A stretch of DNA of 64,000 nt from Favolaschia claudopus (lineage: Eukaryota; Basidiomycota; Agaricomycetes; Agaricales; Mycenaceae). The DNA lies in the NCBI GenBank assembly GCA_037176885.1, contig JAWWNJ010000054.1:496001-560000 (forward strand), in the 5' to 3' direction. Both the position numbers and the translations under genes were made by a program. This document shows positions 38,634-60,860 of the stretch, piece after piece. Numbering within the stretch: position 1 is the first letter of the stretch; the number at the start of each line of letters is the position of its first letter. Below the pieces are notes generated by a model. That model was not told where the DNA came from and ran no database searches. It was given only the letters and a program-made list of their open reading frames with translations.

Positions 38634-41600
38634 TCAATCCCATCGTCTTTGCGGTCCATTATTGTGTCGACGTGGCCACCCGGAGTCAGCAGGGGGCGGC
38701 GGACCACCTCGACCACCTCCTCGGCCTCGACCACGACCGCGGCCGCCACGATCATTACCCCAGCTATTGTCGCGCCCACCGCGATCATATCCCTGCTGTT
38801 GGTCGCGACCGTACTCCCGCCGCTGATATGGCGATTGAGGAGGCTGCTGTCCATAGGCCGGACTATGCTGTTGGTGCGGTGGAGGATAGGGAGGCGGATA
38901 TCCCATTCCTGGAACGGGGGCAGGACCATGTGTAGGCATTCTTGGACCATGATCATGACCGGGCGGAGGCATCCCCGGGTGACCCCATCCTTGAGGCGGT
39001 GGCATTCCTCCCGGTTGGGTCATGGGCATTGCCCCCGCAATTGGGCTCTGCGTGTTTGTAACAGGTATGGTATTGAGGGTGCTCGCTGTGAGGCTTTGAA
39101 GCATCACGCGGACTTGCTCGGGCGTCAACGCCGCGACCTCTGCAGCGAGAACGGACGGCTCAAATGTGAGCTGCGGAGTGGGTGTCGCGGACGGCGGTGT
39201 CAGCATATTGAGCGGATGGGCGATTGCAGGCCCGGTTGCTGGCGCAGGCACAGGCGGAGGTGATGCGAGCTTTCCCTTGTTGAGGATCCAAACACCAACA
39301 AGATAATTTGCGCTTCGAGTTTTCGGTAGAACGAAGTTGTCGAGAAGCTCCATATAATCTGGGAGCTTGTCACTTGATAGAAGAGGAATAATATAGAGCT
39401 CTTTTCCGGGGTGGTGGTCTTTGGGACGACTGCCCCAGGGGAACACGAGTCCGTGACGCTTGTATGAAAATGAGAAATGAATTAAAACTTCGCGTGGGAG
39501 GAATGAAACTCACCCTTTCGCAATCAGAAAGTCCATTAAAATCTGGAAGCCAGCATTGGCAGTAGAAGACCCAGGTGAGAAAGCGACAGCAACCAGTTCT
39601 TTCGCTGAATTCATTCTCGTTTGGAGCAAGAACTGGGCTGACTTGTCCACTGGCACGCGGCCATCAATGCGCAGAAGATCGGTGGGGAACAGTGTCTTCC
39701 AGAGGGAAGAAGTAGAATCAATTGTTCGTCCCCCGATTTGGCGGGCCACGACAGGAGTTTCTTGAGGGATAGTCGAGTCCAAAGGCATATTGATCTGCGT
39801 TGAAGACATTAGCATCATGTAGAAGATACACAAAACGTTACGAACCCTTCCAGACCATACTTGAGCCGTGTTTTCAAACGCAGCTTGTAGGACTTCAGTA
39901 CTGGGAGGACCTCCGCTCTCTTTTTCGTCCAGAAACATATCAAAGTCTTGATCTTCCGTGATGTCCATGTCCACCGTCTCATCCTTGGTGTCCCGCGAAT
40001 CGTCCATGGGAACAGGGGAATGTGTTTGCGGAGGTGAGGAAGTCGTTGCAGGGGCCGACACAGACGTGTCGGCGTCCTCCATATCTTCTTTCTTTGGCGC
40101 CGCCCACAACGCATTCAAGTCAAAGGACGGTCCACTGCCCTTGCTAGCAAAAGGCGAAAGACCTGTCGTTGAAGCCGTAGGCGATGCAGCCGGCGGAGCT
40201 TCCGGAGACACACTGTGGTCGCATAACCCCCTGACTTTCCCATAGTTGGTTCACAAGGTTTCAATGGGAAATTCACCGGAAAACTCTGTGAATTCTTGTG
40301 AATTTCACGGAGATATTTTCACTGGGTCCAACTATGTGAGTGGGACATTCCATGGTGTTAATTCACATGGTTTGGGAATGATATCCACCTCATATTCCAA
40401 TGAAAACTTTTTCACTGTGTTGGATTCCCTTCCAATACTCCCGGAAGTCACTCGAAAAATACGTGAAAACACAGTGGAAACTGCATGAAAAATCTACTAC
40501 GTACCCCTCGCTTTGACCAGTGTCAACATACAAGTATTAGTCTTATCTCTTTTGTATGGAAGTACTTACTGAACAAGTACAACAAGTCTTTACTAACGAT
40601 TACTAAGTTACGGTACTATTCAAAGTATGTAAATTGACTATATTACTGTATTAGGAACACAACCAGTACTGGTGACCAGAACCATGTACCATGTTCGAGG
40701 CAACTTGAACTCCATGAATTTCACGAGGTTTACGGGTGAATTTCCAAGAGTTGCCAGGAAGCGAGGAATGAACTTTCTGAGCAGTTTTCACACATATGCA
40801 TTCATTCGTGAAATTCACGCATTTCATATTGCGGACTCTAATTATGTGAATTGGGTACGTGAAGTCACAACCCCATGAATCTGAATTCACTAGATAAACC
40901 CGTGAATTGTGGAATTCATGGTCCGGCTATGGGAAATTCATGGGGTTCTGCGACCACAGTGGACAAAGCACGCCCAAATCCCGGAATTGGCGACGAGGCC
41001 TGAAAGTCAAAATTCGGCGCGGGACCAGATGCAGGTGGTACAGTACTGCTTGGGCTCTCTTGAGCAGCAGCAGGCAACTCGTCGTCAATATTGATGAGAT
41101 CCGCGAGATTCATTTCAGGCTCTGCACTTGTGTCTGCAGCGACCATAGCAATATCCGCGCTCGATGTCGGCAAAAGCGGGGTATGCATAGGAGGACGTTG
41201 CCAGCTCGCCGACATTGGTGTGACGGGCGACATAGGCGACTCGGGCGGCACAGACACCGACGTCGTGCGCTGCCTCGCTCTCGCTGCACGCTCCCTTTCC
41301 CTCCTCTCCTCTTCCTCTCTACGTCTGTCGACTTCACGCTCACGTATCATCGACGTCTCACCGAGACCTTCGATATCCTCCAGGCCTTTGTGCGTCAGTT
41401 TCGCGCGCGGAATATCGGTCTTTTCAAGAATCCAATGCTCGAGTGCTTCTTTCTCTGCCATCCTGATCGCCTGCTTTGCTTGCTCATTCGCAAGGTCAGT
41501 GCTCGACATTAGCGAAATCTCTTTCGCTGTGATATCACCCGACGCTATGCGCTTGTGCAGCACGGTACGGTCAACTTTGCTCAAATTAAACTGTAGCATG

Positions 41601-43248
41601 CGGAAACGCTCCCTGCACGAAGAAAATGGCATCATCAGCATATAGATTGGAGACAGACAAAATCCAATGTAAAAATGAACGCACTTGTACTTCGGCCCTG
41701 CAGAAGGACTCCCCCGCTTATCCGGCTCAGAATATATACCATACACACATTGCTCAAGCTCATTAGCAAACTGCTTTGCAGCCTCTTCCACCTGGGCGTT
41801 CTCCTCCTCACTCAAATCCATCGGCAGCTTCTCCTTCGGTATCCCTTGCTCATCGCGTACGTATGGATACCGCAGAAATATGTCATGAAACATGTCCGTA
41901 AATTTCTTCAGGCAGAATTCGCGTATGGGATCCTCCGATGCCCCCGTTCCCAATCCCGAAGCCGAAGCCGTGGACTCTCCCCTCTTGCGTTTTGGAGGCG
42001 GGGCATGGGCTTTGGAATGTAAGTGCGAGGATGCCGCTGCCTTGCGCTTCAGGTTCTTCGCACCGGGAGACTTGCGTTTCGCCCGGCCGCTGACTTCAGA
42101 GTCGGAATCCGAGCCACCAGACTCATCGGAGAAGGACAGCCGACGTGCGCGTCGGCGCTGTAGTCACAGGTAAGCCGGAAAATGAACATCAAAATAAGAT
42201 AGAAACGTACCTGAGAACTGGTACCTTGCCCTCGATCCACCACGTACTCGTCCTCGCTGCTTGGATCATCATCCGCCGATTCCGGCTCGTCGAAGGGAGC
42301 CTTGTCGATCTTCTCTTTCTTCACGGCTGGCTGCTTGGGGTTGCTGGACCTGCTGCTGAACCCGACATCTTCCACGGCTTCTGGACCTTCCCATAACACT
42401 ACGAGGGGAACGAAAAGCGGGTCAGCACAAGACAACGCGGATTGAGTAAGAGGGAGAATAAATAAATGGGTATGTAAATACGGCCGTTTGGCTCAAGTCT
42501 CTTTCGTAGCAATGTATGTACGACACGCGGACGACTCAGACAAGCCTCAAGACAGCACAAGCAGGTAAGAGGACTTCACGCAAACACAGGAAAAGACCAT
42601 GAAGTCGGCGTATTTGCGAATAAGCGCTCGGGTGTCTTGAGTGTACAACAAAGTGCAAAGCATGAGGCAGATGCAGATAATCGTCACTCGCGGTACTGTA
42701 ATAATGCAAAGCGGGGCCAAAGGTACAAGATATGATGTTTGTTGAACTACACGAAGGCCGTAGGTGTATGGAGAGAATGGAAAGTACTCACTGACTGTAC
42801 GGTGGCCGGTTTTCTGGGAGCATGGTGGACAGACATACACATCTGCGATATCGACCGTTAGATGTGAATGATGAGTCGGAAAAAGTCATGCTCACTTATG
42901 TCTTCTGCCGTTTGGTCGTTTAGGTCAACACAGGCAAAATGGAACCTGTTGCGTGTTAGGAAAACGAAGTGGCTGCGGAGAGAGGAAAAAAACATACCAA
43001 TCATCACATTCAGCGCAGTTGACCATTGGCGAGCCATCGTCGCCTTTCTTACACAGACAATAGACAGCGGGATTGGGCGATTTGACTCTTTTGCCATTGG
43101 ATGTGGACTTGGCTTTGAGCAGGGTTTTGGGTCGATCGTTTTCGACATTGTCGGAACGCTTTGACTTTGTGGGTGTCGGATGAGCTTTAGATACTGGTTT
43201 GGTGTTGGCTGCGCTTGAGGTAGTCCGCGTTCGCAAGCGCGTACTCAT
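38634..43248 (-). CDS. PHD-TFIIS-SPOC protein (Bye1/PHF3-like), interrupted
   Basis: This resembles Bye1/PHF3/DIDO proteins, which bind RNA polymerase II through a TFIIS central-type domain. ATG at 43248 (MSTRLRTRTTSS). The PHD finger is YCLCKKGDDGSPMVNCAECD, then FHFACVDLNDQ and VYVCPPC. After a basic linker (RRRARRLSF; AKRKSPGAKNLKRKA) comes the TFIIS-like region: REFCLKKFTDMFHD, YGIYSEPDKR, FNLSKVDRTVLHKRIASGDI and LMSSTDLANEQAKQAI. The SPOC domain (about 39900-39300) has VWSGRINMPL, FPTDLLRIDGRVPVDK, YIIPLLSSDKLPDYMELLDN and YLVGVWILNKGK. The tail is Pro/Gly/Arg-rich (RGRGRGRGGGRGG). A 751-base element at 40211-40961 breaks the frame between TFIIS and SPOC. Unless it is spliced out, translation ends shortly after entering it and the SPOC domain is lost. 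Confidence 0.85.
40211..40961. mobile_element. MITE-like insertion in the SPOC gene, 751 bp
   Basis: TIRs of about 38 bases start CACTGTGGTCGCA at both ends and continue through AACCCC and TTTCCCATAG with about five mismatches. GACA lies directly outside both ends (40207-40210 and 40962-40965). Removing the element and one GACA rejoins the host frame, giving GRALSPEAPPAASPTAS. The inside has many copies of GTGAATT/AATTCAC in both orientations, like subterminal transposase sites, and no coding capacity. The CACTG start recalls CACTA elements, but a 4-base duplication is unusual for them, so the superfamily is open. Confidence 0.9.
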
Positions 43249-43301
43249 GTTCTTCGATGGTCTCGTCGTGGTTGTCTGCTAGGTGTGTTCAAACTCCGCC
43301 C

Positions 43302-43341
43302 AGTCACAGTGTCACAGTGTCACATTGTCACGAATGAGTCA
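43302..43341. promoter_or_regulatory. GTCAC-repeat cluster and AP-1-like TGAGTCA
   Basis: The gap between the divergent SPOC gene (ATG 43248) and the transposase-like gene (ATG 43575) holds four spaced GTCAC units at 43302-43331 and a perfect TGAGTCA at about 43335. TGAGTCA is a bZIP/AP-1 type site. A regulatory role is inferred. Confidence 0.4.
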
Positions 43342-43574
43342 CTTCAGGTCACTTGTCAGTCATGTAGCAACGTCATTTGCCCACGGTACAACTGTTTTTA
43401 TTTCTCAAATCTCACCAATGCGCTTCTTCTTGTGAATGTACGTGTTAATTGCAGTTCAGGGTGGGTCTGCCACCGGCCTGCGTGGGTTCATTAAGTCTGT
43501 CGTCGTAAACCTCGGCGGCCACCGCACCCGCACCCGAGGTTGTTCAGACAAACGCGATCCAAGGCCTGTGCCGC

Positions 43575-46402
43575 ATGAAATCGGCAAATAGCATCCCAGA
43601 AATACAAAACTATCAGAAGCCCTCGAATGCTCCAGTTGGAAGTTCCTTCATCCGGCAGTTCAACTATCAGACGGCAAAAAGTACATCCGCCACTCGAGCC
43701 GATGTCAAGGAGCGACTGCAAAATGACCGAGAGTTTCGTGAGGAGACCTTTTCACCATCTCGTGATGTTTTCCTCCGAACCTTGGCCTATTTGGCTGCGC
43801 TGAAGAAGTTGGGATGCAGCAGACCCTTGGACGAGGAGACTTATCTCCTGACATCAGAGGATGAAGAGCGCGAAACGAGAGAGATCTACCTGCACCAAAT
43901 TCAGCGGGGATATCGCCCTAAGGAAGGAATATGTGAGGGGAGGCTGGTTTTCGGTCGGAGCGATGATGACGAAGAGCGCCCGTTCATATGGTAAATGATT
44001 TCATTGTAACTTCGACATGCATACTCAATCCATTCAGTTGCGAACACTACATTCCCGGCAGTAGCAAGGACCATTTCTACGACTCGTCCATTGGAAGCGG
44101 GTCCTACGATGTCGACTATATCGAAGCTGTTATTACAGGTGATCTCGAGGAAGCTACCATGATAGAAGAAGAAGCTCGTGACTCTGGCTATGGACCTTTG
44201 ATTGAGTGTACAACCGTAGCGAATTTCTCGTCTCAAAAGGCATATTGTCGTGAGCTTTCTTTCCCTTCTTTCGAACTTTACAATATACTGAAATTGTTTA
44301 GCCTTCCCCCATCGCAGCACATCGGGAGAAGGCGAGCTTGTACCTTGTACAGCCGTTATTAGAGCGTATGACATGCCCCAGCAAATTCCGAGTATACGAG
44401 CCAATACCAGCTGCTCGTTCAGAATGCCCGTTTATCCTGATCGTGACTTCTAATGCTCACGAGCATCCTGTCCCTCTCCCAACTAAAACTCCTGCTCACA
44501 TTCGATCTAAACTGATGGACCTCTTGAAGGACACGGACGACGATTTGCCAGACCTCACTCCTCGTCGCTTTCTTCGCCACCCTATCCTCAAAGCGTTTCT
44601 TCTTAAAGCTCTACCATCTGTCCTGAATCCGACTCTGGCAGATTGGCATGTCTCGCTGGCCAATCGCTCACATATCAAGGCGTACATAAAACAAGCTCGG
44701 CAAATTCATTATCCATTCGGAACTGGGTGGAACGGTGAGTGTGCTCAATCTCCATAGGGCGAACTCTTCTCACCTCATAAAGGTATCGTCAATCTTAAAG
44801 CGCACCAGGACGCTCATGTTCCGAAGGGCAGCCACTACATCAGAAGACTCATAGCTATTGAGCATCCCGGCAACACTCATGATGAAGAGGATGACGAAGA
44901 AGATGCTGCCCTCAAGCAAGATAATCGCCTTCGACTCATTATCTGCATGACACCAGAGGCCAGCCACAGGCTGATTTGCTCCGGTCGCTATCTTCAAAGT
45001 GACATAGCTTTTCGTCGCATCATTGGATTCAAAGAGTTTGAAGTGGCAGTAATGGACCGGGACGCCAACACCAGTAAGACTTGACTTATATGCATGTTGC
45101 TTCATTGACGTTCACGCTTGTTGCTGCATAGGTGTAATTTTTCTCCGCATCTTTCTCAACAGAATGACAGCCTTTGCCCATCAACGCGTGTTTGAAGAGA
45201 TCGAAGCGATAGTGTTAGAAGACACAGGAAAGCGTCTCAAGTGGCATCATATTCACGCCAGCAATAAGGAGGATGGATATGATTGCATGATCCTCTCTTG
45301 GGTTAGCGATCAGCATCGCGGTCAGGCCAAAGGTCTGCCACCTGTTTTTTCACTTCTCTATCTTATGCTCTCGCCATAGGTCTTGGTCTCCACCTGCAAA
45401 AACTTGCTTCTACTCTGCCTTCGAAGCCTGATCTGTATGAGCCTCATCGAACTATACAAGAACTGTCGCCATACGACCATCTACACCGGATCTTCCGAGT
45501 CTGTACCGTTCACTACTTCCGCCTTGTGAAACTCTGCGCTACAACAGAACAAGTTCGATGGCTCATGAGAAGCTTGGTATGCATGGAACACCATGACTGG
45601 GACGGTACTTTGCAGTCGATTGGCGAACTCGGTGGGAAGGCAGCACAAGGTGAGTGTTTTCTCTGTTTCGAATGCTATTTAGATTACGCTCTAAAATGAT
45701 ATCAGATTGGCTGAATAACAAATTGTCGAGTGGGTTTGTGTTTGAAGGCATTTGCTGGGAGAAGAGTTTCATCCCTCGAATTATTTGGGAGGCAGGTGAT
45801 GGAAACTCAAACCTTATAGAGACTGTCCACCGTGACGCCAATCGTGAGGGTGTTCAATGTACGCTACTGGGAGGCCTCAAAAAAGGTCAAGCTTTCGATC
45901 GAATGAAGATGAAGGCTCTTCAGGTATGTTCTTCTTCTTCTTTCGTTGTTGTTTTTGACACTGTTCATAGTCTTTCGAGGAATTTGGTGTGACACCATCT
46001 TACAAAACAGGACATCCTTTCGATAATGCCCTCATGAATCTCAAACGGCGAGGTATCTCTATTTTCATTCCATTATCAAAGACTCGAGACTCAATTCTTT
46101 GTTCAGATAACCAACGACACAAACAAGTCATTAACGACGACTCCAAAATTCACGCCTGGAACCATAAGCTCAAGAATGCGATCGATACTTTGGAGAAGGC
46201 CCGTCGTGCTGCTCAAGCCAAGTCCAGGCAACTTGAAAATTGTCAAGACACTCAAAAGCGCACGAAACTCCAAGGCGAGGTTGAGAAGAAGCATAGGGCT
46301 GAAAGCAAAGCTTTAGACGCGTTGCAGAAAGTATGGATAGGTCGGTCAGCTCTGGAAGCCATAGGTTCAGGACGTGTCCCTCTTCTTGAATTACCATGTT
46401 AA
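43575..46402 (+). CDS. DDE-transposase-like protein of an Agaricomycete family
   Basis: About 750 residues in several exons with short introns, ATG at 43575 (MKSANSIPEIQNYQK), stop at 46400-46402. I recognise the layout of a large Agaricomycete family resembling MULE-type transposases. An N-terminal region has LIECTTVANFSSQKAYC and a putative DNA-binding part (YLVQPLLERM, FILIVTSNAHEHPVPLPTKT). Three blocks could supply a D-D-E triad: GRYLQSDIAFRRIIGFKEFE, LSWVSDQHRGQAKGLGLHL, and SNLIETVHRDANREGVQCTL with LGGLKKG after it. The family link is from memory, and the triad assignment is inference. The C-terminus is a charged coiled coil (LEKARRAAQAKSRQLE). I saw no internal stop and no flanking TIR, so it may be a transposon whose ends I missed or a resident (domesticated) gene. 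Confidence 0.6.
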
Positions 46403-46630
46403 TCTTTAATCACCTTGTTTCTTGTTTCTCACACCGCACACACATTGTCTTTCACCGCCCTACTTCGCCTCCTCGCCTCTCTTCACCGATGGGATCGTTG
46501 GACTGGCCAATAGCAACAGCCAATAGCAAACTTACCACTAACCGACAATTATACTTTGTGCATCGTGTCAGCGCCTCTTTGTGTGTCGACTCCCAGCACA
46601 ATCTCCCTCTCCTCCTCTCTGCTACACAAG

Positions 46631-47795
46631 AATGTGTCTCCAGAAACCGTGGCAAGGTCTATTCGACGCAGCCTATGCCAATCTCCAGCGTAAATCATCA
46701 GGAGATATCGTGATCACTTTCGTAGACCCGATAGGGAATGTCTATGTCGTCAAACTAGCATGGCCAGTATTTTCTATTTATTTTTTCCCCTCATTTGTTG
46801 CTTACACTCTGTGCAGGCCCACTGTGAACGGGCATCCGGTCCCTGCTGCATATCTATCTCAATATCTCCATACAAAAAACAGATACTTCCCCTGTTTCTG
46901 TATCGAGTTCGGACAGGATGTCTCGTCGAGAATGCTGGTTAACATAGAAACAGATTCGTCTGTCGCTGTTTGTCACCATGAGCCACCTCGGTGTCAATTC
47001 TTCCGTAGGAGTTTTTTCATATCTCATCTTTAGTCACTCACTCAGTCTATCGCAGTTGATCTTAATAAAATCCTCAGATCAACGGATCTCTTTAGTGATT
47101 TTAAGAGTGTTTCCGCTGACTACAAGCCAGTTGATGCGGAGTTGCCGAGCTGGGTGCCTAGAGTGCTGCCGCCACTCGACAAGCCAGGCGGATATCTCCC
47201 CCAGAACCTAGGGGAGGTTGGGTATCAGATATGGTGGGGGACGTGACTTCATGTCATACCGGAATTTTTGGAATTTTGACCTGAAACCTGGCCAGATCAA
47301 CTCGAAATACCCAAATTTGTCGACGAGGAGACATTGGGAATCGAGGCAAGGGCTTCGCGTTGGCGGCGAGCCTTACGAGATGACTTGGCGCGTTGCGTGG
47401 CGGCGATGCGCTCAGGTTCTGAGTCCGAGACGTGTGAGATGTCTGAGGACGAGCGACGAAGGGTAACAGAGGTAGGAGGCCCGACTCACTATTAATGTTC
47501 TGTGAGCTTTTCTTGTCCGTTTTCCCTCTCAAACTCATTTTCTGACTTGTATTTCCTAAAGCGGCAAAAAGCAGATACTGTAAATACTTGTACCGAGGCA
47601 ACCGTCACGGTCACGGAGGGGTCAGTTGCGTTGCCCAAAACGCAGAGGACATACTTTGCAGCCCTGACCTGTAACAGGTATCAAGATGATATCACGCACC
47701 AGAAGATGCAAAGAGAGGAGAACTCACAAGTAGTATGGCTTAATACGCACGGGACTTTATCATCCGATCCAGGGTATTTGAGGAGCTCGACGTAA
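46631..47795 (+). CDS. Hypothetical multi-exon protein, possibly broken
   Basis: Coding-like blocks line up on the plus strand: MCLQKPWQGLFDAAYANLQR (46631), TVNGHPVPAAYLSQYLHT, VDLNKILRSTDLFSDFKSVS, LPSWVPRVLPPLDKPGGYLP with GEVGYQIWWGT, then DQLEIPKFVDEETLGIEARA and SEDERRRVTE, joined by plausible short introns. The first junction (46766-46820) does not keep the frame with any obvious splice pair, so it may be a pseudogene. No domain recognised. Its 3' end overlaps a minus-strand fragment. Confidence 0.35.
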
Positions 47796-48301
47796 ACCTC
47801 ATGCCCTGCTATAGTCTGTCCTGAAGGCTTCCCTCGAGAATAAACCACATTTTGGATTGGGTTCGACCAATCTTCAGGATCCATCGCAAATAGATGGCCA
47901 ATAAAACCAGTAGAGCTGGTCTCGGGATACTCGACGACAGTCCGGACTGGATACCGGAATAACGTTTCGAGCACAGTCTCTCGATTCAGTTTTACGTGCT
48001 GCTCAGACTCCCTTTGCAAGTTGTCATTGGGATTCTGGAAATGGAATGTCGGTACAGCCAGTTCTCGCGTAGAAGAAGGAGTCGATAATGTGGAATGAAG
48101 GTGGTCAAGGGCAAGCTTCAGATGGTTACGGATGTCTAAGGGCACTCGAATCTGCTCATGGGTAGAAAACGAAGCAAGGTCTTGAATGAGTGGGAGTATG
48201 TCGACAGTTTCTTCGTCAGGATTAAGCAGGGAGCTGACTCCCAGCACTCTATGGTGCGCGCGGCCTAAACACCACCAAATAGGTCCCATCATTGATGCCA
48301 T
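47622..48301 (-). CDS. Hypothetical protein fragment, TE-associated family
   Basis: It reads SSLLNPDEETVDILPLIQDL, LDIRNHLKLALDHLHSTLS, TVVEYPETSSTGFIGHLFAM and HEVYVELLKYPGSDDK, then across a 63-base intron to a Cys-rich end, CVLSHTTCQGCKVCPLRFG, with a stop at 47622. The C-x7-C-x2-C-x2-C end recalls the N-terminal part of Agaricomycete transposase-like proteins such as the one at 43575, but that is from memory. The 5' end runs into an inverted repeat (48248-48279), so it is probably truncated. Confidence 0.35.
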
Positions 48302-48707: not shown

Positions 48708-49154
48708 CAATGGCCAGCTGATTTCAACAGGTGGATTTAGCAGCTTGTGAACGTCCATTGTGCAGACAACTACTCCGACGACCGACTACCAGTCCGCGGT
48801 GTCTTGCTCAGTCCTCCGGAGAGTCGGTATCCTCTATCCAATCGAAAGGCATACCACAGCAGAGGGCCATCTGGATAAGCAAGCTAGAGGATAACATCGG
48901 ATATCTCTCAAAAGAGAGCAAGAAGAAGACTGAATTGTTGAGAAAGCGACGAGAATCTTCGTGCCAAAGAAACGTGTTTAGAGACGGAGATTAGAGCCAG
49001 AGTGACCTTTTGTGACCGACTGGACCAGCCATCAGTCTGTTCAACTCCCGACAGGTCCGTTTTACGGCCATCAACTCAGATTATCAGCATAGATTATCAG
49101 CAATCAGCAAACACCGACAAACCGCCTCCGACAGCGTCCGACAGGCTCGGTAAT

Positions 49155-49607
49155 AGAGAGTTTGCGGTGAGCCGCCAGAAGCCACCTGGCGGCTCTAATG
49201 GCATGCGGATTGGAGCGGCTATGCTGTCTGGCGGCTCGTTTGGCGGCTGGTTCAAATTTGGTTTTGCGAGTCTATTCTTGGTGCTTAGTCATCTATATCT
49301 TGAGCCATACACAAACTTGACACAAACGAAGAAAGTTGGACCCGAAAATCTGACGCTATCGCACATTTGAGCCGAAGACTTCGGTTGACGCTGGAAATTG
49401 CTTCAATTCAAAACAATTATGCACGTTTGGACAACGAACTCTCATTGGCTGAAGGTATTGTCAAATATACAAGGTACCCAACCTCGAAATTGTGCTAAGG
49501 ACCGCGCGCGACGAGCCGCTGAACGAGCCGCCACATGAAGGAGCCGCTCCAATCCGCATGCCGTTGGAGCCACCAGGTGGCTTCTGGCGGCTCACCGCAA
49601 ACTCTCT
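49155..49607. mobile_element. GC-rich MITE, 100-bp inverted arms
   Basis: Outer ends AGAGAGTTTGCGGTGAGCCG; the arms (about 49155-49255 and 49505-49607) are about 90% matched. The arms hold repeated GCCGCC/GGCGGC motifs that form smaller hairpins. The three bases AAT stand outside both ends (49152-49154 and 49608-49610), a possible 3-base duplication. No coding capacity. Confidence 0.65.
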
Positions 49608-49610
49608 AAT

Positions 49611-50372: not shown

Positions 50373-51945
50373 ATGCCCAAGGATCTTTCGAATGACAACG
50401 ACCCGGCTCTTCCTTTCCCTGCCGACTACGACACGGAATCTGGTTTTCCAACGCAATATATTCGATTGTATGTCCCTTTCTATACGTCTGTTTTCATCTA
50501 CAGTATATATTCATCTAACTCTTGACCACTTCCAGGGCGACACTTACAAACCCGCAGCTCAATGAACACTGCAAGACCTTCCGGCTGGCATATACGGGGA
50601 ATAAAACAGCTCTTATCAATCGTTTGAAGGAATTTAGTGGCGATCGTGCTCAGTGGGACCGGTACGTACTCTTAATTATCAGTTATGGATTTAGATGAAC
50701 TCGTTCATTCCGTTTAGACTGCTACAAACACACACAAGGGTGCCCGCAAGGCGAGTGGGGACAGGAAAACCAAGCCGAAGGCGTCTGTCACCCGGCGCGA
50801 GATCCTTTTCGCGGCTGCGGATGGTGTACGCACCCTGCACGTCCCCCTCACAGAGCGCTCGAAGGACTTGCGGACAGCGAACGAAAAGGCTAGAATAAAG
50901 CCCTGGGTATGTTCTTCTGTTTATGTTTCTACATTCTACATACTGACCAACGGGTTACTCAGGCTGAGATGATCGTCGCTAAATTTCCGTTCGACCCCAG
51001 CGTACTTGATCAAAACAGGTCCCTCTACAAACCCCAGCCCGCAGCTCTACCCACATCAACGCCAACAACGCCACCTGTTGCCGCTGGACATGTCCGCCTC
51101 CAAGATGATCATGCTGCCCCGATGGTTGGAATAGCATATATCTGTCGGGTGGCGAAATGCTTATCAAAAGATTAGGGAACTCCACCGCAGGATTTCTTCC
51201 CAGTGCGGCCTACCCCCGCTGACGAACCAGCCGATATACACATAACATCGCCATCTCCCCCTCCCTTCATTGCTGCCACCTCCGCCTCTGACCCGAATCC
51301 GGCCACTGACAACATCCCGACACGCACCTTGCTCCTCGCAGGTGGAATCGCTCTCACGGTTCAGTGAAGAGGATGTTCCGGATCCCCCTGCAATCAGCTA
51401 CGCGCACCGCGGTGTCAACTCGCTGTTGGTGGAATGGGACGACAACTCTCCTCGTTGGCCTGGAACGTCTTCGCTTACTATCAAGGGTGTTCCCATCGCC
51501 GTCAAGTATTGGTCGCGCGTGTACAAGTATTGGAAATCATCTCAGTGGCAAGGCGTCAAGAAAAACTCTTTTGATTGGAAAGTACGTCCTTCATTTCAAT
51601 GTAATTTGTCCGTCTCATTTCTTTCAGACCCTTGTTACAGCTATCCTGGCTGCGCCTTCAATCGACGAATTCTGGGCCAAGTACTCCGTACCTGGAAAGG
51701 ATGGGGTGCTTCAGCGTATGAAATACACCCCGCTACTCAAGCAACTTACTCGACGGAAGGAAGAGGTCACTCGTATCGCTGCAATTGCTATTCAAGAACT
51801 CACTCCCGAGCAATTGACTTACCGTAAGGGTGGCCAGTATTGTGTGATGAGAAAAGCCTCGACGATTGCGGCTCGCTATCGGGAGCTCAAAGGGTTGGTG
51901 GGGATGGACTTGGGGGAGGAAGAGGAGGAAGGGGAGGACGACTAG
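50373..51945 (+). CDS. SAP-domain protein beside the tyrosine recombinase
   Basis: ATG at 50373 (MPKDLSNDNDPALPF). After the first intron a SAP DNA-binding motif is clear: LTNPQLNEHCKTFRLAYTG followed by NKTALINRLKEFSGD (helix, turn with Gly, helix). Then come a basic region with REILFAAADGVRTLHV, a Pro/Thr-rich linker and a conserved-looking C-terminal half: AHRGVNSLLVEWDDNSPRW, IKGVPIAVKYWSRVYKYW, WQGVKKNSFDWK, then APSIDEFWAKYSVPGK and TYRKGGQYCVMRKASTIAAR, with an acidic tail and a stop at 51943-51945. It converges on the recombinase gene, whose stop lies 134 bases away. SAP domains bind A/T-rich DNA, so a role in target or end recognition of a mobile element is plausible but inferred. 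The N-terminus is uncertain. Confidence 0.65.
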
Positions 51946-52078
51946 TAGTGGCTCATCTATATAACAGTCTCTTTAATTCAAATTGACGCGATTTGTGCGA
52001 ATTGAAGTCAAGTCAAGCCAAACAAGTAATTGAATACTATTTGTATACAAATTGGAACAGGAATCAAGTACTATTGAA

Positions 52079-52996
52079 TTAGATACAATGACATGTTCTA
52101 CCGCAACTAAAACATTTCTTCGTCGGAGGGCGGTTAGGATTCAAATAGTCTTCACGACGCTCGGACGGTTCATCGGCGTAAGAAATCAAGTACTTGACAA
52201 TGGTCAAGTTGCTGAACTCGGTACTCCAGCCACCCCAGTCGCAAATACGAATCAGCCCCCAACGACAACAACTATATAACCATTGGCAGCCGCCACGACG
52301 GAACGAATGGGTACCATATGGCGCCGGGTCAATCTCAATATCAAGCAAATTGTTTCTGAACATCTCCAGAAAGCACTCGCTCGTCTGAAAGCAAGTATTA
52401 GAATGATATATAATGAAATGTGTTTGGGACGTCACCATGTGTGTGTTCTCTCGAGAAACTCGGTCGCCAGATACTATTTTTCGGAAAAGAAACCCATCTT
52501 CAATATCTGAGACATACAGCCAATTCGCAAGAGCACGAATCGTACAAAGGTGGGCCAGGTGGGGAGGGAAGAGGTGTAGATAGAATGGTTTCACACCTGA
52601 CCTATCCGTAAGTTCAGCAAATGAAGGACGAATTCCTCCTTACCGCCAAACTGACTTGTCTTGCGAAAAGGGAGTGTCAGCGTGTTGGAAACGAACTCTA
52701 TGTCGTGTATTTGGATCTTTAGCACCTCGTCGAAGCGCAGCAGACAAAGAAATCCCAGCACATAGGCCAAAGTCAGAAGTCTGCGAGCGCGCGCACCTCC
52801 CCATTCATGTGACTCCTTCTCTGCTTTTCGTGAACGTGGGGCGTACTCTTTGACTTGTGCTATCTCTGGCTTGTTATTGAATTTGTATACATGAGTAGCG
52901 TCTCCTGAATCACCATTAGCAAGAGAGGCTTACAAAGTTTGGTTTACCTACTTCTGTGATTGCATGAGCGCTCGTTGCAGTTTCCCCGGCTCGTAC
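52079..52996 (-). pseudogene. Tyrosine recombinase, C-terminal part (split gene)
   Basis: This is the catalytic half of a Crypton-like tyrosine recombinase. From 52996 it reads VRAGETATSAHAITE, then (intron) GDATHVYKFNNKPEIAQVKE, LTLAYVLGFLCLLRFDEVL (box I Arg), HDIEFVSNTLTLPFRKTSQF, (intron) VKPFYLHLFPPHLAHL, FLFRKIVSGDRVSRENTHM, (intron) and YGTHSFRRGGCQW (box II, His-x-x-Arg). It ends with ICDWGGW and STEFSNLTIVKYLIS (candidate nucleophile Tyr), then a Cys-rich end (CFSCGRTCHC) and a stop at 52079. The N-terminal part lies at 59200-59845 on the same strand; the exon junction falls at the end of the inserted segment. No internal stop was seen, so the gene would be whole if the insert were removed or spliced over. 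Confidence 0.85.
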
Positions 52997-53004
52997 CTGC
53001 AACA
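52994..53004. repeat. Direct repeat (left) of the 6.15-kb insert
   Basis: TACCTGCAACA here and at 59148-59158. Bases outside the 11 do not match. Read on the minus strand it is TGTTGCAG plus GTA, that is, a complete splice acceptor and the first codon of the next exon. A related CTCGTACCTGC occurs again at 53040-53050, in the loop of a small hairpin (CTACATACA/TGTATGTAG arms). Confidence 0.8.
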
Positions 53005-53246
53005 TAGTCTCTTGTAAACAGACGCTACATACAATGGTCCTCGTACCTGCGGTGTATGTAGTCTGTCAACTTGCTGTCATCGGCGATTGGAGGTGAGGAT
53101 TATGCCGTAAAGTGCGGAGTTTGAAAACGAAACGCGTCATGTCACAGTATGTGACACTCTCAATTGACGCGTCTTCTTCCTTCGCTTCCGCCTCATTCAG
53201 CCCACTCGTCGCGTCATTGACCGCCAAAACTCTCGCCTCACTTCCT

Positions 53247-56200
53247 ATGGAGGAGTTTAATCCAAATACCATCCGGAAAGTGCGGTCATATAGGCGCATT
53301 CCGTCGAAGTTGACAGTCGACATACCATCTTTTTCATTCAACGGCTCGGCCTCTGCACCTGCAACGCCTGCGACGGCAACACCACCCTTTTCATTTGTCA
53401 ATGAGATTCGTCCCAGACGATCTAAATGGGAGAAGGTTGACGAGGTCTTCTTGAATTGGGGATTTGACAGTCTCGGCGAGTTTCTTCAGGCAGTCTTTCA
53501 TCCGCATCGGCGCGGGGAAGAAGACCTTCGGACCCCAAGACATGTTGCTACTGTGACTCGATTTCTACAAGGCAGTTCTGCGGTCAAACTGGCGGATATC
53601 ATCGAACTCATCTACAATCACCCCCAAAGTCGTCCCAAACTCAAATTCCCTGACCAGATTAACGCAGCCTTCTCTCCCGATAAGCCACTGGAAGAAATCC
53701 GCTTTGCTAAACCCTGTCTAAATGCATGGGCAACGCGAGTAGTTGGCGATGAACTCTATCGGCGCACGGGGCAGCTCGCTAGAAAGAACGACGATCCTAA
53801 CGACCGAAGACACTTACGTGCTAGCACAAATGGGAGGAAAGAAGGAGTTAGGGTTGTAACGTGGGATGACACCCGGTTTACGATTCAAGGGCTGGCGGAT
53901 CGCTATCAAGAGGAGGATGGTCTCATGTGGTACATCACCGAGTGTTTTTGCGCTCCGCGAGTGGATGGGAAGGTTGTGGTTCGCAAGCGCCGGCCCCATC
54001 CTGCGGTATGGCCTTTGAAATCGATTGTTAGCACAGCACCTAATGAAAGCATTAGATCCAGGTTGCCGCCCTCAGCTCCTTCATTCTCAGCCGGAATTCC
54101 TATGCTAGTGGAGACCTCGCCTTACCGCTCGGCATCTGGCATTTTGCATCACAGTCCCATGTCGATGTCAAACGAGTTTATTGTCGACTTGGCTCGACTG
54201 TCAGTGACTCAACAGCTCGCAAAGCCCTCGACTCGGTCTCTGATGCTGACTCCCTCGCGCTGGTGACTAGAGTCGATACTGCGGCGGATCAAGGAGAGTC
54301 TGCGGGCTCCCTCGTTCTCGATAACATCCAATATTACGATCTCACGTATGAGCATGGGATAGGACGCGGAAACGAACTCAAAGTCGGCACGGCAGCTACC
54401 TTCGCCTTCTACCACGATGCCCAACCTGGCGCTTTTGACGCTCGAGATCATGTAGACCGTATCTGTAAAGAAGAACGCCAAAACTTGACCACAGAAATGA
54501 TTTACAACGACATCGATTGGCTCAAACACTACGATATTTCTGACCACCATCTGGTCCGCGTCCTGGCAGAGTTCTCTCCTCATCTTTCCCACATGACTCC
54601 CCAGATCTCGGCTCGTTTTCGGGAACTCCTCGCCATACACCGTATCCCGCTTCACAAAACTGATCTACAGCCGCTAGGAACGAATGCAGAACAAGAAGGA
54701 ACCTCTCAGGGGATGCATCAAGCGTTGAAGGACTTTGACCAACAGATTGGCGTTCAGCCCGAGAAGTTTCGCAATATCTTGTCTTGGGTTCGCGGAGACG
54801 GAGCTTCGCATGCGACGATCATGGGCCTGAAGAAATTACTTGCCGACACTCCAGATATCTATGATTCTCTGCGCAATGTCATCACCACTCCGGAGACTTG
54901 GCACACGAAAGCGACCGACCTCAATTCTTGTGCATCCAACCATTATGGCCCTGCCGCTTCCAAAGATCCATCCTCCCTTTCACGTAGTTCCAACGCAGCT
55001 AATATGAAACGACCAACGGATCTCAAAAAGTGCGATTTTTATCCCACTTCTCGTAGTATGACTTTGATCTGGGAGGCGCGTGTACTTGATTGTTGGCGGT
55101 AAGTTCTATCTCTCACCGTATTTTTCCTGAAAGATGACGAACCATAGCATTGTCCTCGGTGTCGACGATATACATGATCACTTCGAGCAACTCGCACAAA
55201 TCGACGCGCTTCCAAGTCTGGACGAGCTGCTTCTACATGCGGCTGCCCTGCGACGTAATTATGCCTCCCACACCGCCTACAACCAATCTTTGTCGAAAAC
55301 AGAATACGACTCTGATCCAGATACGGCGATCCCCATTGGAACTCCGAAACCTTTCGCTGCGGACAACATCACAACACCGGCTCCAGAAAAGTCGAACGCT
55401 GGGACGGGAAAGGGCAAGAAAGCGCCGGAAGTGCATGTCGAGGCTGAGGGATTCGACGGAGACCGAGTGTTGAGTAACTCGATTCTCTTCATAATGGAGT
55501 TCGGGTGGTGGGTGGAACTCAATTACGCCATTCCTGAGGGCGATATTGGGCGGGTTCTTGAAATCTTTAAGGTACGCCGTCCGCATTGCAATGAAAGCAA
55601 GGCTCAACCGAAGATATATTTATATTTTCTCCTTTGCTGGAACTTCAAACCAACACTACATGCGGTATATGTTGGAGTTATACGCCCTTCTCAAGTACGA
55701 ATGCTCTCCCGCCCTCAAACTCACCCTCCTCAACAATTACCTCTTCAACCTTCGCGGTGAACTTGGTCATTCTGTTGAAGGCGATTTGACCCAGGAATGG
55801 AGTAATAAATGGATCATTGGGATGGCGAAGAAACGCGGTGGGGAGTTTGATGAGCAATATTTTCGCAAGACGATCTCTCCAAATGTTCGTCACTTTCTCC
55901 AGATTAAAGAGGATGTCGAGTCTGCCTTTGATTTGAAGCGTAGAAGCAAGTCACATACCTCCCCTCACCTCCGCGACGAAACGAAAATTCTGCTCCGCAT
56001 GTACAAGGAAGAGGAGCTTCATTCCTTTTGCTCGGGACGGAGTATGGGACACGTTGCGGTCAATCGATTTGACCGAGGATATGCACGACTCGAAGGCGGC
56101 AAGTTGGATGATTTCTTGAAGAAGAGCAAGGACTATGTGTCAGTATTGAAGACGATGGAGAAGCTTCGCCGTATGGAAGACACTCAGCTTATGGATGTTG

Positions 56201-56601
56201 ATCCTTCCACCTCCTCTCTTCCCCGCAATTCAGCATCCTCACCTCCGAATCCATCATCCCCTCCTCCCGCCCCAACTCGTCCCGCTTCCGCTCTCTCAAA
56301 TTCCTCCACATCGTCCTCCGACTCATCTCAATCCAGTCACTCTACCGCTTCGCATGTGGCCACAGAGCAAGTTGAAGAGCACGATCCGGAAGACCGCAGT
56401 AATGAAGAACTTACCAGCGGGTCAGACTTGACTGTCACCGTCGACGCCGCGACCGGCCAGATGAGCGGGGATTGGTATGAAGAGCACGAATTTCCGGAGG
56501 CATTGCTGAAAATGAACGAGGAAGACGCAGAAAGTTCGGAGGAAGAGGACGAATTGAAACCCACTGACGATGTCGATTCAGAGGATTCAGGGGAGGACTG
56601 A
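53247..56601 (+). CDS. DUF6589-family protein
   Basis: Four exons (about 53247-54006, 54063-55099, 55147-55571, 55614-56601) give about 1070 residues with no stop or frameshift seen. DUF6589 is a very abundant Agaricomycete family of unknown function. Recognised family blocks: FLNWGFDSLGEFLQAVFHP, ALSSFILSRNSYASGDLALP with GIWHFA, VKRVYCRLGSTVSDSTARKA, SLVLDNIQYYDLTYEHGIGR, ILSWVRGDGASHATIMGLKK, TTPETWHTKATDLNSCASNH, then LNYAIPEGDIGRVLEIFK and FAGTSNQHYMRYMLELYALL. The C-terminus is Ser/Pro-rich and acidic (EEEDELKPTDDVDSEDSGED). Asp residues in LDN and GDG, with an acidic pair in PEGD, could be an RNase H-like active site; this is my inference. It converges on the helicase gene with 94 bases between stops. 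The ATG at 53247 is the first Met in a good context; an upstream in-frame start is possible. Confidence 0.82.
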
Positions 56602-56695
56602 AATAATTGAGTTCAATAATCTACCTTACAATGCATTCAGTAATCAATGTATACTCCGAGCGAATCACGCGAAATAAAAACAACACATAGCGAGC

Positions 56696-58981
56696 TCATC
56701 CTCTATTCCGCCGGCTGGTTGCCGTAGTTCGATAGGCTGGCCGATGACTGGCAGCGATTGTTGCAGAGGTGAATTTTGACTTGTCTTCCGTTGTTTGTCG
56801 ACGTGAACCAGCCGTCTGATTTGTAACGTCGTCAAGTACAGTCGAGCGGCGAGCGCGTTTTGCGGGAGGAGGGACAGGTGATGAGCGTCGGCGACCTTGA
56901 TCATCACCGCTAGATGCCGCCTCATGCTCGACCTCCGATTCTTCCACCTCGACCTCTTCCATCTCCTCAGACTCAGAGCTGTCCACCACTTTCTTCTTTT
57001 TCTTTGATTTCCGACGCGGCTTCGACTTGTTGTGGTGTTTGGCATTTTTCTTCAGTCGAGCAGCCTCGCGATCCGAGCGAATGGTTGACTGAAGGTCGAG
57101 AATGACGTCGTAGAGCGTGAAGATGTGTGCTGCGGCGAATATCCAAGGTTGAACGAGTTCTGAAAGCGATTGAACTGAATCTATTGAGAGCAATTTGTCG
57201 AGAATGAGCGTGCTGATCGAAACAGGAAAGTAAGATGACTTCGGTCGATGAATATTGGCTGAGCGACGCTGTTCAGCCAGGCGAAGTTTATTCCCGAACT
57301 CTGCCAGTTCCGTCGACGCAAGTTCGCGTTCTTTCTTCTTCAATTGAAGCTTCTTCTCCGAAGCCGAAAGTACGATCGGTTGTGTGCCGGCGGAAGGTGT
57401 GAATGGTGGTAAGACGACACGATCCGGCAGAGGGGGTGACGGGAACGAAAGCGTGATGTTGGCGCGTTTAGCACAGAGAGAGCAAGGGAGAGGGCGCTTA
57501 GCAGCGATACAGTCAAGAGTTGTCGTCGAAAGCGGGGGGTTTTGATAAATGCGATTCCAAACAGCCATATAACAGGTTTTTTCGGTCAAAAGGAGCGCCT
57601 TGCTGTGGTCCATAGGTTTTGTTTTCTTTTCGGGATGAGTGGTGTCAGTATTTGCGGCAGGCTTTTGTCGTCTAGAGGTGGTAGGAAGAGGTAGACCTGC
57701 AAAACATTTAGTCGAGAAGAAATGAGTTTGAAAAAAGCGCACCGAGCTGTTTTATCGCATCTAGAAGCATACTTGGCTGATAGAAAGCAAAGGCGCGGGC
57801 GGGTATATCCAGGCGTCGACCCGCACGACCTCCCTGCTGATTCAATGCATCTGGATCAGGAATACCGATTGAGTAGCTGTCAAGCAGTGACGGCGCGTGA
57901 ACTCCATTCGCAAAGGCAATGGTCGCGATGACCACCTGGCACATCGGATCGTCCTCCAGCAATCGGATTGTCTCCTTGTTGTAATCTGAAGTGCGAATAG
58001 AGTGGTAAGTTCTGATGCGTCGCAAGCGGTGGAGACCTTCAGGGAGAGAATTCCACAGATACATATACACTCGGAAGAGATCATCGATAGCGACGCAGTG
58101 AATGATGCCTTTTCGTCCAGAGTTGAGGTAGGGCAAGAGTTGAGGGAATTCGGTGCTGCCGACTCCATTTACCAGCGCTTCCATGATGAATTGAGTATTC
58201 GGACGCTCATTACTGAGCCGGAGGAGATAGAAATCATTGCCAGAGAATCCAAGACTCTTGCAGATGCTATCGGTAGGCGCGCCAGGCTGCAGAGTAGCTG
58301 AGAGACCCATGACGGAGATTGTAGAGGGAAGACGGCCGCGGAAGAAGGCGCCGACGCGTTTGAACAGCGGACGAAACGATGCTCCCCATTCATTCACGAG
58401 ATGAACTTCGTCCAGACATCCATACACCGCATTTGCTCGAAACGTGTCGGAGGCTGTGATGGAGCGCCAAGCTTTATCGTGGAGGTGCTCAGGGTCGACA
58501 CAGATGACTCCGTAGGTATTGCATTCCCGGATGATCTTAACGAGATCCCGTTTATTCTTGCGCGCGTCGGTTACAGTTTCATGGCAATAGGCGAAGGCCG
58601 GGACGGATAGTTTTTCGAGTTCATATACCTATTTGGGTCAGCAGAGATAGTTCCGAGCAGACTGAGACGCACTATATTCCATGCCAGACCCTTTGTCGGC
58701 GTTATAACAATTCCTACGGGTTTGGCGCGAGTTGGGAGAGAAGGATAGAGGTGTGAATTCCGATTCATTTCCCTGAGGACGATGATGGGCACAGCAAACA
58801 TTGCCGACTTTCCACCACCTGTAGAGACACAGCAAAGCACGTCTTGCCCATCCAACACGCGGAGAATGATGTCTTCTTGGTACGAGTAAAGGCCATTCGG
58901 CCATTGTGGAATGAGCTTGCGGACGATCTCTTTGACAGTCTGACGGCCCTGGGTGTCGGTCCAGCGATATTTACTAGCCAT
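56696..58981 (-). CDS. RecQ-like SF2 helicase
   Basis: This is a DNA helicase with a RecQ-like ATPase core. ATG at 58981 (MASKYRWTDTQGRQTVKEIV). In order: YSYQEDIILRVLDGQDVL (Q-motif-like), CVSTGGGKSAMFAVP (Walker A, about residues 53-59), IVITPTKGLAWNIV (Ia), CLDEVHLVNEWG (DEVH, motif II), VMGLSATLQPG (III), GIIHCVAIDDL (IV), QVVIATIAFANGVHAPSL (V) and QQGGRAGRRLD (VI). After an intron near 57700 comes an extension typical of fungal transposon-linked helicases: a CSLC pair, a coiled helical part (LQLKKKERELASTELAE), and a Lys/Arg- and Ser/Glu-rich tail. I see no RQC or HRDC domain. No stop or frameshift was seen in the exon chain. It sits with DUF6589 inside the recombinase gene, so a role in moving or copying this element is likely but inferred. 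Confidence 0.88.
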
Positions 58982-59147
58982 AGTGATGTATTCCGGCCAG
59001 CCAGCGGCAAGAGAAGCAAGAAAGAAGCACCCAAGAAGACGACGCAGCTGTGGTAGCTGTCAAGAGCCGTGTGGGAACTATTTCCCAATCCGTACATTAC
59101 GGCATTATGCCCACCTCCGTGCATCACCCCCGTGGCAAAATACAGAC

Positions 59148-59158
59148 TACCTGCAACA
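59148..59158. repeat. Direct repeat (right) of the 6.15-kb insert
   Basis: Second copy of TACCTGCAACA (see 52994-53004). On the minus strand it also supplies an acceptor, so the upstream exon could splice here (next codon GTA, followed soon by a stop) or skip to the distal copy. Confidence 0.8.
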
Positions 59159-59199
59159 ATATGTGAGTCAATTCTATACCTCTAAGAAGATAGGCAAAC

Positions 59200-59845
59200 C
59201 TTCCGACGACGCCAACTTGTCATGTATGTGGCGACAGTTTCGGAAACAGAAGGGTTACCAACCGATTCGCTTTCATGCCAGGGAAGAGAACCTAGCCCGT
59301 TCAAGCGTCCGAACGCATAGGTCATAGCGGCACGCATTTTCTGTGCATGGGCGTAGCTTGCTCGAAAGACTGTACTATGCTTTTCTGTTCTGTTAAAATC
59401 ATACTCGTCGCATCTGAATCATTGTTAATAAATCAGGGCACAGTCAAGAGGCTCTGACGCACTCATGCATAATCCAAGCGCAGATACAAAACGGAACAAG
59501 TTCACTTGGGTTCTTGCCAAAGAACTTATCATCGGCTTTAATGAGTTTATTTTCTTTGAGGAATTGTACGCATTGGCTCATCAAGCTGTGGAAAAGTCAA
59601 TAGCAAATTTCATCTTTAAAATGTACTGACCGTCGATATTCCTTGTCAGTTTCATTTGTGACGCCTTTTGAGGCGTCCAAGAGATGCTCCTGCAGTTGCG
59701 ACACATCATAGATATCCTCCGTTACCGTTTCGCCCTCAGCCTCTATATCATCTTCAATTTCTCCGGAGTAGGCACGGTCCTCATCGCTCGCATGGTGTAT
59801 GGCTTCATAGATTGTGGTGAAGATGGGCGGGATCTCACTGGACAT
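59200..59845 (-). pseudogene. Tyrosine recombinase, N-terminal part (split gene)
   Basis: ATG at 59845 (MSSEIPPIFTTIYEAIHHAS). The exon chain gives an acidic leader, then SLMSQCVQFLKENKLIKADD, GKNPSELVPFCICAWIMHE, DEYDFNRTEKHSTVFRASY, AHAQKMRAAMTYAFGRLNG, LGSLPWHESESVGNPSVSE and TVATYMTSWRRRK. This is the N-terminal helical (core-binding) domain typical of Crypton-like tyrosine recombinases. Introns lie near 59591-59635 and 59412-59459. The next normal exon (VRAGETATS) is 6.2 kb away at 52996. If the proximal acceptor at 59151 is used, the product stops within a few codons. Confidence 0.85.
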
Positions 59846-60348
59846 AGTGGAAGAGAGGAAACAATCAATGTATTGTACCCCTGTCTAGTGTATAGAAAGG
59901 AGCTGCAAGCGTAATCTACAGGTGTTTCAAATCCAGCCTACGACCCTGACGGCTAGGTTAACAAAAGATAGTCAAGGAATAGATTTACCTAATGCATCGC
60001 TTGAGTTGTCAATTCAGCCATGTAAGGTCAATGATTTCGGAGCCTGAGAGTGTCGAGTCAGAGAACATTGAGTCAGAAAGCGTCGAGTCGGAGAGTAACT
60101 CTATAATAGACTCGTTAGCCAGCATCCATTGTCGACTAACAACAAGAACATACCAAGTGTGGTAGCGGAGCTGCTGGCTACTGCACTAGCCTTATGCGCA
60201 GGCTTCCGAGTGTGGGACTTGCGTGTGGAGCGGGGTCTACGTGTCGCCAAGCGAGAGCGGGACAAGAGCCCGGGAAGTGCGTAATCAATAATGGCGGCCG
60301 GTATCCATTTGCACATGGCTGCCGGGATTACAAAAGCTGAAGCGTCGG
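59846..60348. other. No confident gene; short tandem motif
   Basis: At about 60048-60095 a GTCGAGTCnGAGA-type motif is repeated three to four times with changes. It may be the decayed edge of the recombinase element. Nothing else was supported. Confidence 0.4.
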
Positions 60349-60647
60349 TTACGCCCGCCTTGGCCCGAAGACTGACGGCGCCCGCCGACATCTGGACTTA
60401 GTAGAGTAAGAGAGACTGGCCATGATATGTACTGTAGCTGTCTTGGTCTTGAGAACTCGAAGCACAGAGGAGCGGTGGAAATCGTCAGTGTCGGTGCTGA
60501 GACCCAATTCAAGATGGGCTTCCATGAGCGCATGGAGATCATAGGGCTGGATACGGTAATCACAATGGACACAAGCGAGAAATGCGAAACACGGACCTTC
60601 AATAAGGATTGAAACGCTACACCGGGGAATAACAGCACCCCATGTTG
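60349..60647 (-). pseudogene. Zinc-finger fragment, TE-associated type
   Basis: An open stretch with no ATG reads ILIEGPCFAFLACVHCDYRI, QPYDLHALMEAHLELGLSTD and FHRSSVLRVLKTKTATVHI before a stop at 60349. Cys and His are spaced C-x2-C-x9-H-x5-H, a layout I associate with zinc fingers at the N-terminus of Agaricomycete transposon-linked helicases. It is probably the remnant of another element. Confidence 0.35.
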
Positions 60648-60860
60648 TTACATATCAAAAGTCTGAGGAGGCAGAAAGGTAGTTTCAGGTAATATAATGA
60701 GCATTCCCTCAAAAAAAGAGGAAAGAACACAATTTTTGAGGGAGATATACGCGACGTGAAACCTGCTTATATAATACATATTAGCTAATAACATTCTGAC
60801 ATGGGTGGAGGCTGGTGGAGGGGCGCGGCAAACATAAGACTATGTCACAGTCACAGTATA

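Follow-up and report, generated by a model that had tools for sequence, protein, structure and literature searches.

What kind of insertion divides a recombinase-like gene of the basidiomycete Favolaschia claudopus in two, and which enzyme carried it there? The question is raised by a stretch of 64,000 nucleotides (positions 496,001 to 560,000 of contig JAWWNJ010000054.1, assembly GCA_037176885.1; here 'the window'), in which a DUF6589 gene on the plus strand and a RecQ-like helicase gene on the minus strand converge, with the separated halves of a single gene on either side. An earlier note, made from the letters of the window alone, had described this arrangement as a two-gene mobile unit set into an intron acceptor. 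Both descriptions held up: the first gene matches Pfam PF20231 and the second encodes a helicase, empty sites exist, and the same gene pair is found on shared contigs in relatives. We consider it likely that this insert moves by cut and paste as a DNA transposon of AcademH type, with the DUF6589 protein as its transposase, RecQ as an accessory factor and short copies that are moved in trans.

We searched the F. claudopus assembly (264.6 Mb, 460 contigs), in which the window lies on contig C54. The earlier note had seen no terminal inverted repeats (TIRs), but these are present as TAGTCT...AGACTA: the left terminus of the element reads TAGTCTCTTGTAAAC... and the right, reverse-complemented, TAGTCTGTATTTTGCC..., and the pair TAGTCTCTTGTAAAC / TAGTCTGTATTTTG is accompanied by an inner inverted repeat, as in a class II transposon. 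Read from the other side, the right end is TAGTCTGTATTTTGCCACG..., compared with TAGTCTCTTGTAAACAGAC... at the left, and farther in from the termini there is a longer, imperfect inverted repeat (Table 1). The 11-base direct repeat reported on both sides of the insertion, TACCTGCAACA, is exact, but we discarded it as the unit of duplication in favour of a 9-bp repeat (CCTGCAACA), since in other copies whose flanking repeats match, the repeat beyond the terminal TA is 9 bp long. The apparent 11-mer arises because TA closes the element and, by chance, also preceded the 9-mer in the target.

Retaining one copy of TACCTGCAACA restores a 49-base GT-AG intron, as the earlier note had stated, and the search for uninterrupted sites succeeded within the same genome: the flanks meet at four further places, with identical sequence around a single TACCTGCAACA. 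The recombinase-like gene belongs to a repeat present in at least five places, with ~98–99.9% identity around the site. The four empty sites lie in other copies of this repeat and seem not to be allelic to the window locus: stretches situated 7.5–9.5 kb away on one side and ~3–4 kb away on the other have short repeats at most in common with the window. Two of the empty-site contigs, C172 and C93, agree at 99.86% over 1.45 kb. When positions 41000–48000 of the window were used as a query, no second place matched the full 7 kb among the 40 of 579 candidates scored, the best match being 2.7 kb. The published genome of F. claudopus has 265 Mb and 86.8% duplicated BUSCO genes (PMC10905254), so that both nuclei were probably assembled.

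The recombinase-like gene is a mere victim of the insertion. Its naming as a tyrosine recombinase is suggested by R...HxxR...Y motifs spotted by eye and not by profile or structure searches: its pieces had no Pfam match at E<=0.1, and the single piece searched against the PDB had no match there. The host repeat was recognised within approximately 51438–60798 of the window, minus the element, and at loci L015–L018.

Table 1. Coordinates of the transposon, its parts and the interrupted gene in the window.
Feature	Position	Strand	Remark
Transposon, TAGTCT...AGACTA	53005..59149 (6,145 bp)	+	Ends of relatives stop at the same base
Left target-site duplication, CCTGCAACA	52996..53004	.	Same as 59150-59158; single copy at empty sites
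Right target-site duplication, CCTGCAACA	59150..59158	.	
Left terminal repeat, TAGTCTCTTGTAAACAGAC	53005..53023	+	
Hairpin at the left end: CAGAC and stem, nearly invariant loop TCCTCGTACCTGCGG, stem and GTCTG	53019..53065	+	Arms covary among relatives
Inner left inverted repeat, counterpart of the right end	53059..53130	+	Contains I1, 53089-53126 / 59081-59118, 79%
DUF6589 gene, probable DDE transposase	53139..56601	+	Exons 53139 (or ATG 53247)-54005, 54056-55098, 55148-55571, ~55618-56601
RecQ-like SF2 helicase gene, 731 aa, open	56696..58981	-	Exons 58981-58673, 58628-57743, 57696-56696
Right terminal inverted repeat, inward from the end TAGTCTGTATTTTGCC...	59081..59149	-	
Recombinase-like gene, C-terminal part (host)	52079..52996	-	Joined to the other half at empty sites
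Recombinase-like gene, N-terminal part (host)	59200..59845	-	Joined to the other half at empty sites

A genome-wide search with the element region (40 of 681 candidates scored) revealed one more full-length relative (94%) along with partial copies, more distant relatives (65–72%) and short two-ended copies, and common ends were found from 6-kb elements down to miniature inverted-repeat transposable elements (MITEs) of ~505 bp. We inspected the ends at 30 loci, the window and L021–L049. Exact 9-bp repeats were present at 20 of these, representing 17 sites, or 17 of the 19 distinct two-ended sites, where the probably allelic pairs L025/L026 (99.97% identity over 9.9 kb) and L029/L030 (100% over 4.0 kb) were each counted once. 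Flanking 9-mers did not match at L037 and L043, and eight loci (L021, L022, L023, L024, L032, L041, L047 and L049) had one recognisable end or none. No two of the 17 duplications are the same, which leaves no core site; G or C occupies position 1 in 15 of them, and C occupies position 9 in 9. Direct repeats at the boundaries of other copies, which the earlier note had proposed to look for, were found, with a different 9-mer at each of the 17 sites.

Movement has been recent. On contig C75, one pair of elements shows identities of 100% (343 bp) and 99.87% (5,986 bp); their duplications differ and no flank similarity was found within 800 bp on either side; near-identical elements in unrelated flanks mean that at least one of them moved recently. 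The gene-less ~505-bp copies are numerous: with one of them as query (616 first-look candidates, allelic copies included in the count), 36 of 40 scored matches covered both ends at 82–100% identity, and a relative likewise has short copies of its own. A 94% relative on contig C24 (G000 C24:2072363-2098927; L048 and L033) is interrupted by a 20.4-kb insertion, despite which its outer flanks match, AAGCAGAGC.

Several of these loci carry further insertions or irregular flanks. On C24, the two ends of the 20.4-kb insertion agree at 100% over no less than 1,102 bp, in the manner of LTR direct repeats, and this insertion is therefore probably young. At L028, a 523-bp insertion (1212–1734), starting GTGGGGGACGTGACTT and ending AAGTCACGTCCCCCACC, probably represents a different MITE family that has inserted into the element. 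The short copies at L037 and L041 have a common left flank, CTGGTGACC, with a mismatched right flank at L037, and are possibly alleles or a recombination product.

The public protein model P0001 (1,060 aa) for the DUF6589 gene matched PF20231 across almost the entire profile (E 3.2e-109). A structure model of the protein found its best matches among transposases and integrases, weakly (Foldseek E 0.2) and from several superfamilies at once, and three acidic residues (D, D, E; the equivalents of D345, D504 and E835) are conserved, suggesting that the DUF6589 protein is the probable DDE transposase of the element. In searches by sequence, two whole DUF6589 proteins had no Pfam family besides DUF6589, solved structures included no matching transposase, 0 of 32 pattern matches were confirmed in viral contigs scanned with the DUF6589 alignment, and DUF6589 was not mentioned by name in the literature searched. 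Mushroom genomes encode many DUF6589 proteins, and a probable activity can now be given to this domain, whose function was unknown; many annotated DUF6589 genes would then probably be transposon rather than host genes.

Both genes of the element had been thought to be intact. This applies to the RecQ gene, and the DUF6589 gene is uncertain in one intron. Comparison of copies identified three introns, and at the third the window copy has no AG at the acceptor position that other copies use. When the usual donor was combined with five downstream AG sites, three gave a frameshift and two stayed in frame with loss of part of the domain. P0001 takes a different intron there, keeping the entire domain with a few extra residues, so the window copy cannot be called broken, and we dropped a 'probably broken' label for this reason. 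Spliced at the common sites, copy L033 has an uninterrupted DUF6589 frame of 1,105 aa.

The RecQ reading frame is open (731 aa) in both the window and L033, with the helicase motifs GGGKS, DEVH, SAT and QQGGRAGR recognised by eye. The whole protein matched only DEAD in Pfam (9.9e-20), and in the PDB it matched RecQ (1oyw, 1.2e-17), BLM, WRN and further RecQ-family chains. We asked how often the two genes keep company, counting within the best 120 rows of 167, 150 and 168 matches and telling contigs apart by their length. Among the matches listed, 26 of 117 DUF6589 contigs also had a RecQ-type match, or 32 of 164 with a second DUF6589 search added; most DUF6589 contigs had no RecQ partner among these matches, and a shared contig does not prove adjacency. 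Locus tags are adjacent or near in Mycena alexandri (C8F04DRAFT_1244800/1), M. olivaceomarginata (B0H14DRAFT_3085158/9), Psilocybe cyanescens (CVT25_011485/9) and Stygiomarasmius scandens (VKT23_014627/8). The named organisms in the match lists, some rows of which are nameless, are, as far as known, Agaricomycetes, and from these records a RecQ gene appears to recur as a neighbour of DUF6589 in other members of the class.

The left end of the element is structured. Past the terminal TAGTCTCTTGTAAA, CAGAC and GTCTG enclose two variable but mutually complementary arms, with the loop TCCTCGT(A/G)CCTGCGG between them. This predicts a hairpin, the 3' part of which shares bases with a second, inner occurrence of the terminal motif, TAGTCTGT (53059–53066). 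We compared 7 of 13 aligned left ends (the window and six relatives; the other six are near-copies), trimming the arms where the conserved flanks begin. The arms vary yet complement each other, with variant flanks in L022, and the summed pairing energy of the true arm partners was better than that of every other arrangement among 5,040 permutations, with RNA as well as DNA parameters; an earlier version of the test with hand-cut arms had the same outcome. Against the hairpin, the minimum-energy fold of L022 lacks it, although the arms of L022 fit the permutation test. It is kept in all four aligned short copies. The covariation could come from selection for the hairpin or from conversion between the arms of a palindrome. 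This covarying left-end hairpin is a new observation. An 11-base match between the left flank of the insertion and the hairpin loop, CTCGTACCTGC, was set aside as chance.

We propose that the DUF6589 protein would be an enzyme of RNase-H fold whose D-D-E triad is interrupted, ahead of the E, by a long helical insertion. It would bind the TAGTCT ends and inner repeats, excise the element and join it to cuts staggered by 9 bp, whose repair would leave the 9-bp duplication, and it may mobilise the gene-less ~505-bp copies in trans. RecQ would serve as an accessory factor; its likeliest task would be either to open DNA at the ends, of which the left can form a hairpin, or to aid repair of the excision gap. 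Fly BLM, which acts in the repair of P-element gaps, suggests the latter. The near-identical pair on C75 and the short copies offer a usable system for studying the part of a helicase in DDE transposition.

AcademH DNA transposons are said to have been described by Kojima in 2020 (Mob DNA 11:15). As published, AcademH elements have a duplication of 9 or 10 bp and encode a helicase (PMC10045372), and they are low-copy in Basidiomycota, Ascomycota and Mucoromycota (PMC10799480). The element here has a 9-bp duplication, a probable transposase with a helicase of DEAD/Helicase_C type (the DEAD and 1oyw matches above) and a basidiomycete host, and because both duplication length and helicase agree we file it as AcademH-like. 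In duplication length, helicase and host, as given in the published descriptions, we found no difference from AcademH. The authors of the Marasmius oreades genome describe putative non-autonomous Academ elements as widespread and looked for autonomous ones (PMC8290104). Our claim to novelty is correspondingly modest: the element fits a described kind of transposon, and the new points are that DUF6589 receives a proposed activity and that the left end is structured.

The earlier note had favoured site-specific or circle-mediated integration by a tyrosine recombinase supplied in trans. The target inside a recombinase-like gene and a repeat that seemed 11 bp long spoke for this, but such an element would be expected to use a conserved core site; the TIRs, the 17 different 9-bp duplications, the unrelated flanks and the probable DDE transposase that the element itself encodes leave this mechanism barely conceivable. 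Transposition is of the ordinary TIR mode without site specificity, and neither a circle nor a recombinase in trans is needed. Because MULEs make ~9-bp duplications and the inverted repeats here extend beyond the terminal motif, a Mutator-like element (MULE) might be considered, but the Pfam scan found DUF6589 only and no MULE domain, and we know of no MULE with RecQ; we regard this as highly improbable. Kolobok elements target TTAA and duplicate 4 bp, as opposed to the 9 bp here with TTAA in none of the 17 sites. Their KolobokH lineage resembles our element as a fungal DNA transposon that encodes a RecQ helicase, found only in fungi, but its RecQ is placed downstream of the transposase domain (PMC9587614), whereas here the gene is convergent on the opposite strand, making a KolobokH origin very unlikely. 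Multicopy RecQ-like genes also form subtelomeric families in fungi, which are linked to telomeres (PMC4522978), in contrast to the location here inside a TIR transposon.

Alternatively, DUF6589-RecQ elements might form a superfamily of their own, apart from Academ, with a fold related to hAT, P and RAG enzymes. The RNase-H fold, D-D-E triad and long helical insertion before E proposed for DUF6589 from the model are those of Hermes (hAT), P element and RAG1; hAT and P elements have ~8-bp duplications, unlike those here, and to our knowledge no RecQ, and DUF6589 has no sequence match to these enzymes. The spread of structural matches over several superfamilies, the sole Pfam family on two whole proteins and the failure to match a solved transposase by sequence are consistent with separate standing, and a text search of the literature for the hairpin together with AcademH gave no paper on it. 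As the available descriptions already unite a 9–10 bp duplication and a helicase in fungal AcademH, parsimony favours identity, and we think a separate superfamily unlikely. If it were one, the hairpin, as DNA or RNA, might be a transposase recognition site opened by RecQ, its retention through compensatory changes and its presence in non-autonomous copies pointing to recognition; such helicase-licensed transposition we consider distinctly doubtful.

Two repeats lie elsewhere in the window. Positions 49151–49610 contain internal inverted copies and are 82–90% similar to sequence by the empty sites on C218 and C251. A 164-bp repeat at 47315–47478 is present in at least 33 other places in the genome at 92–100% identity, and is probably a young MITE or SINE-like family.
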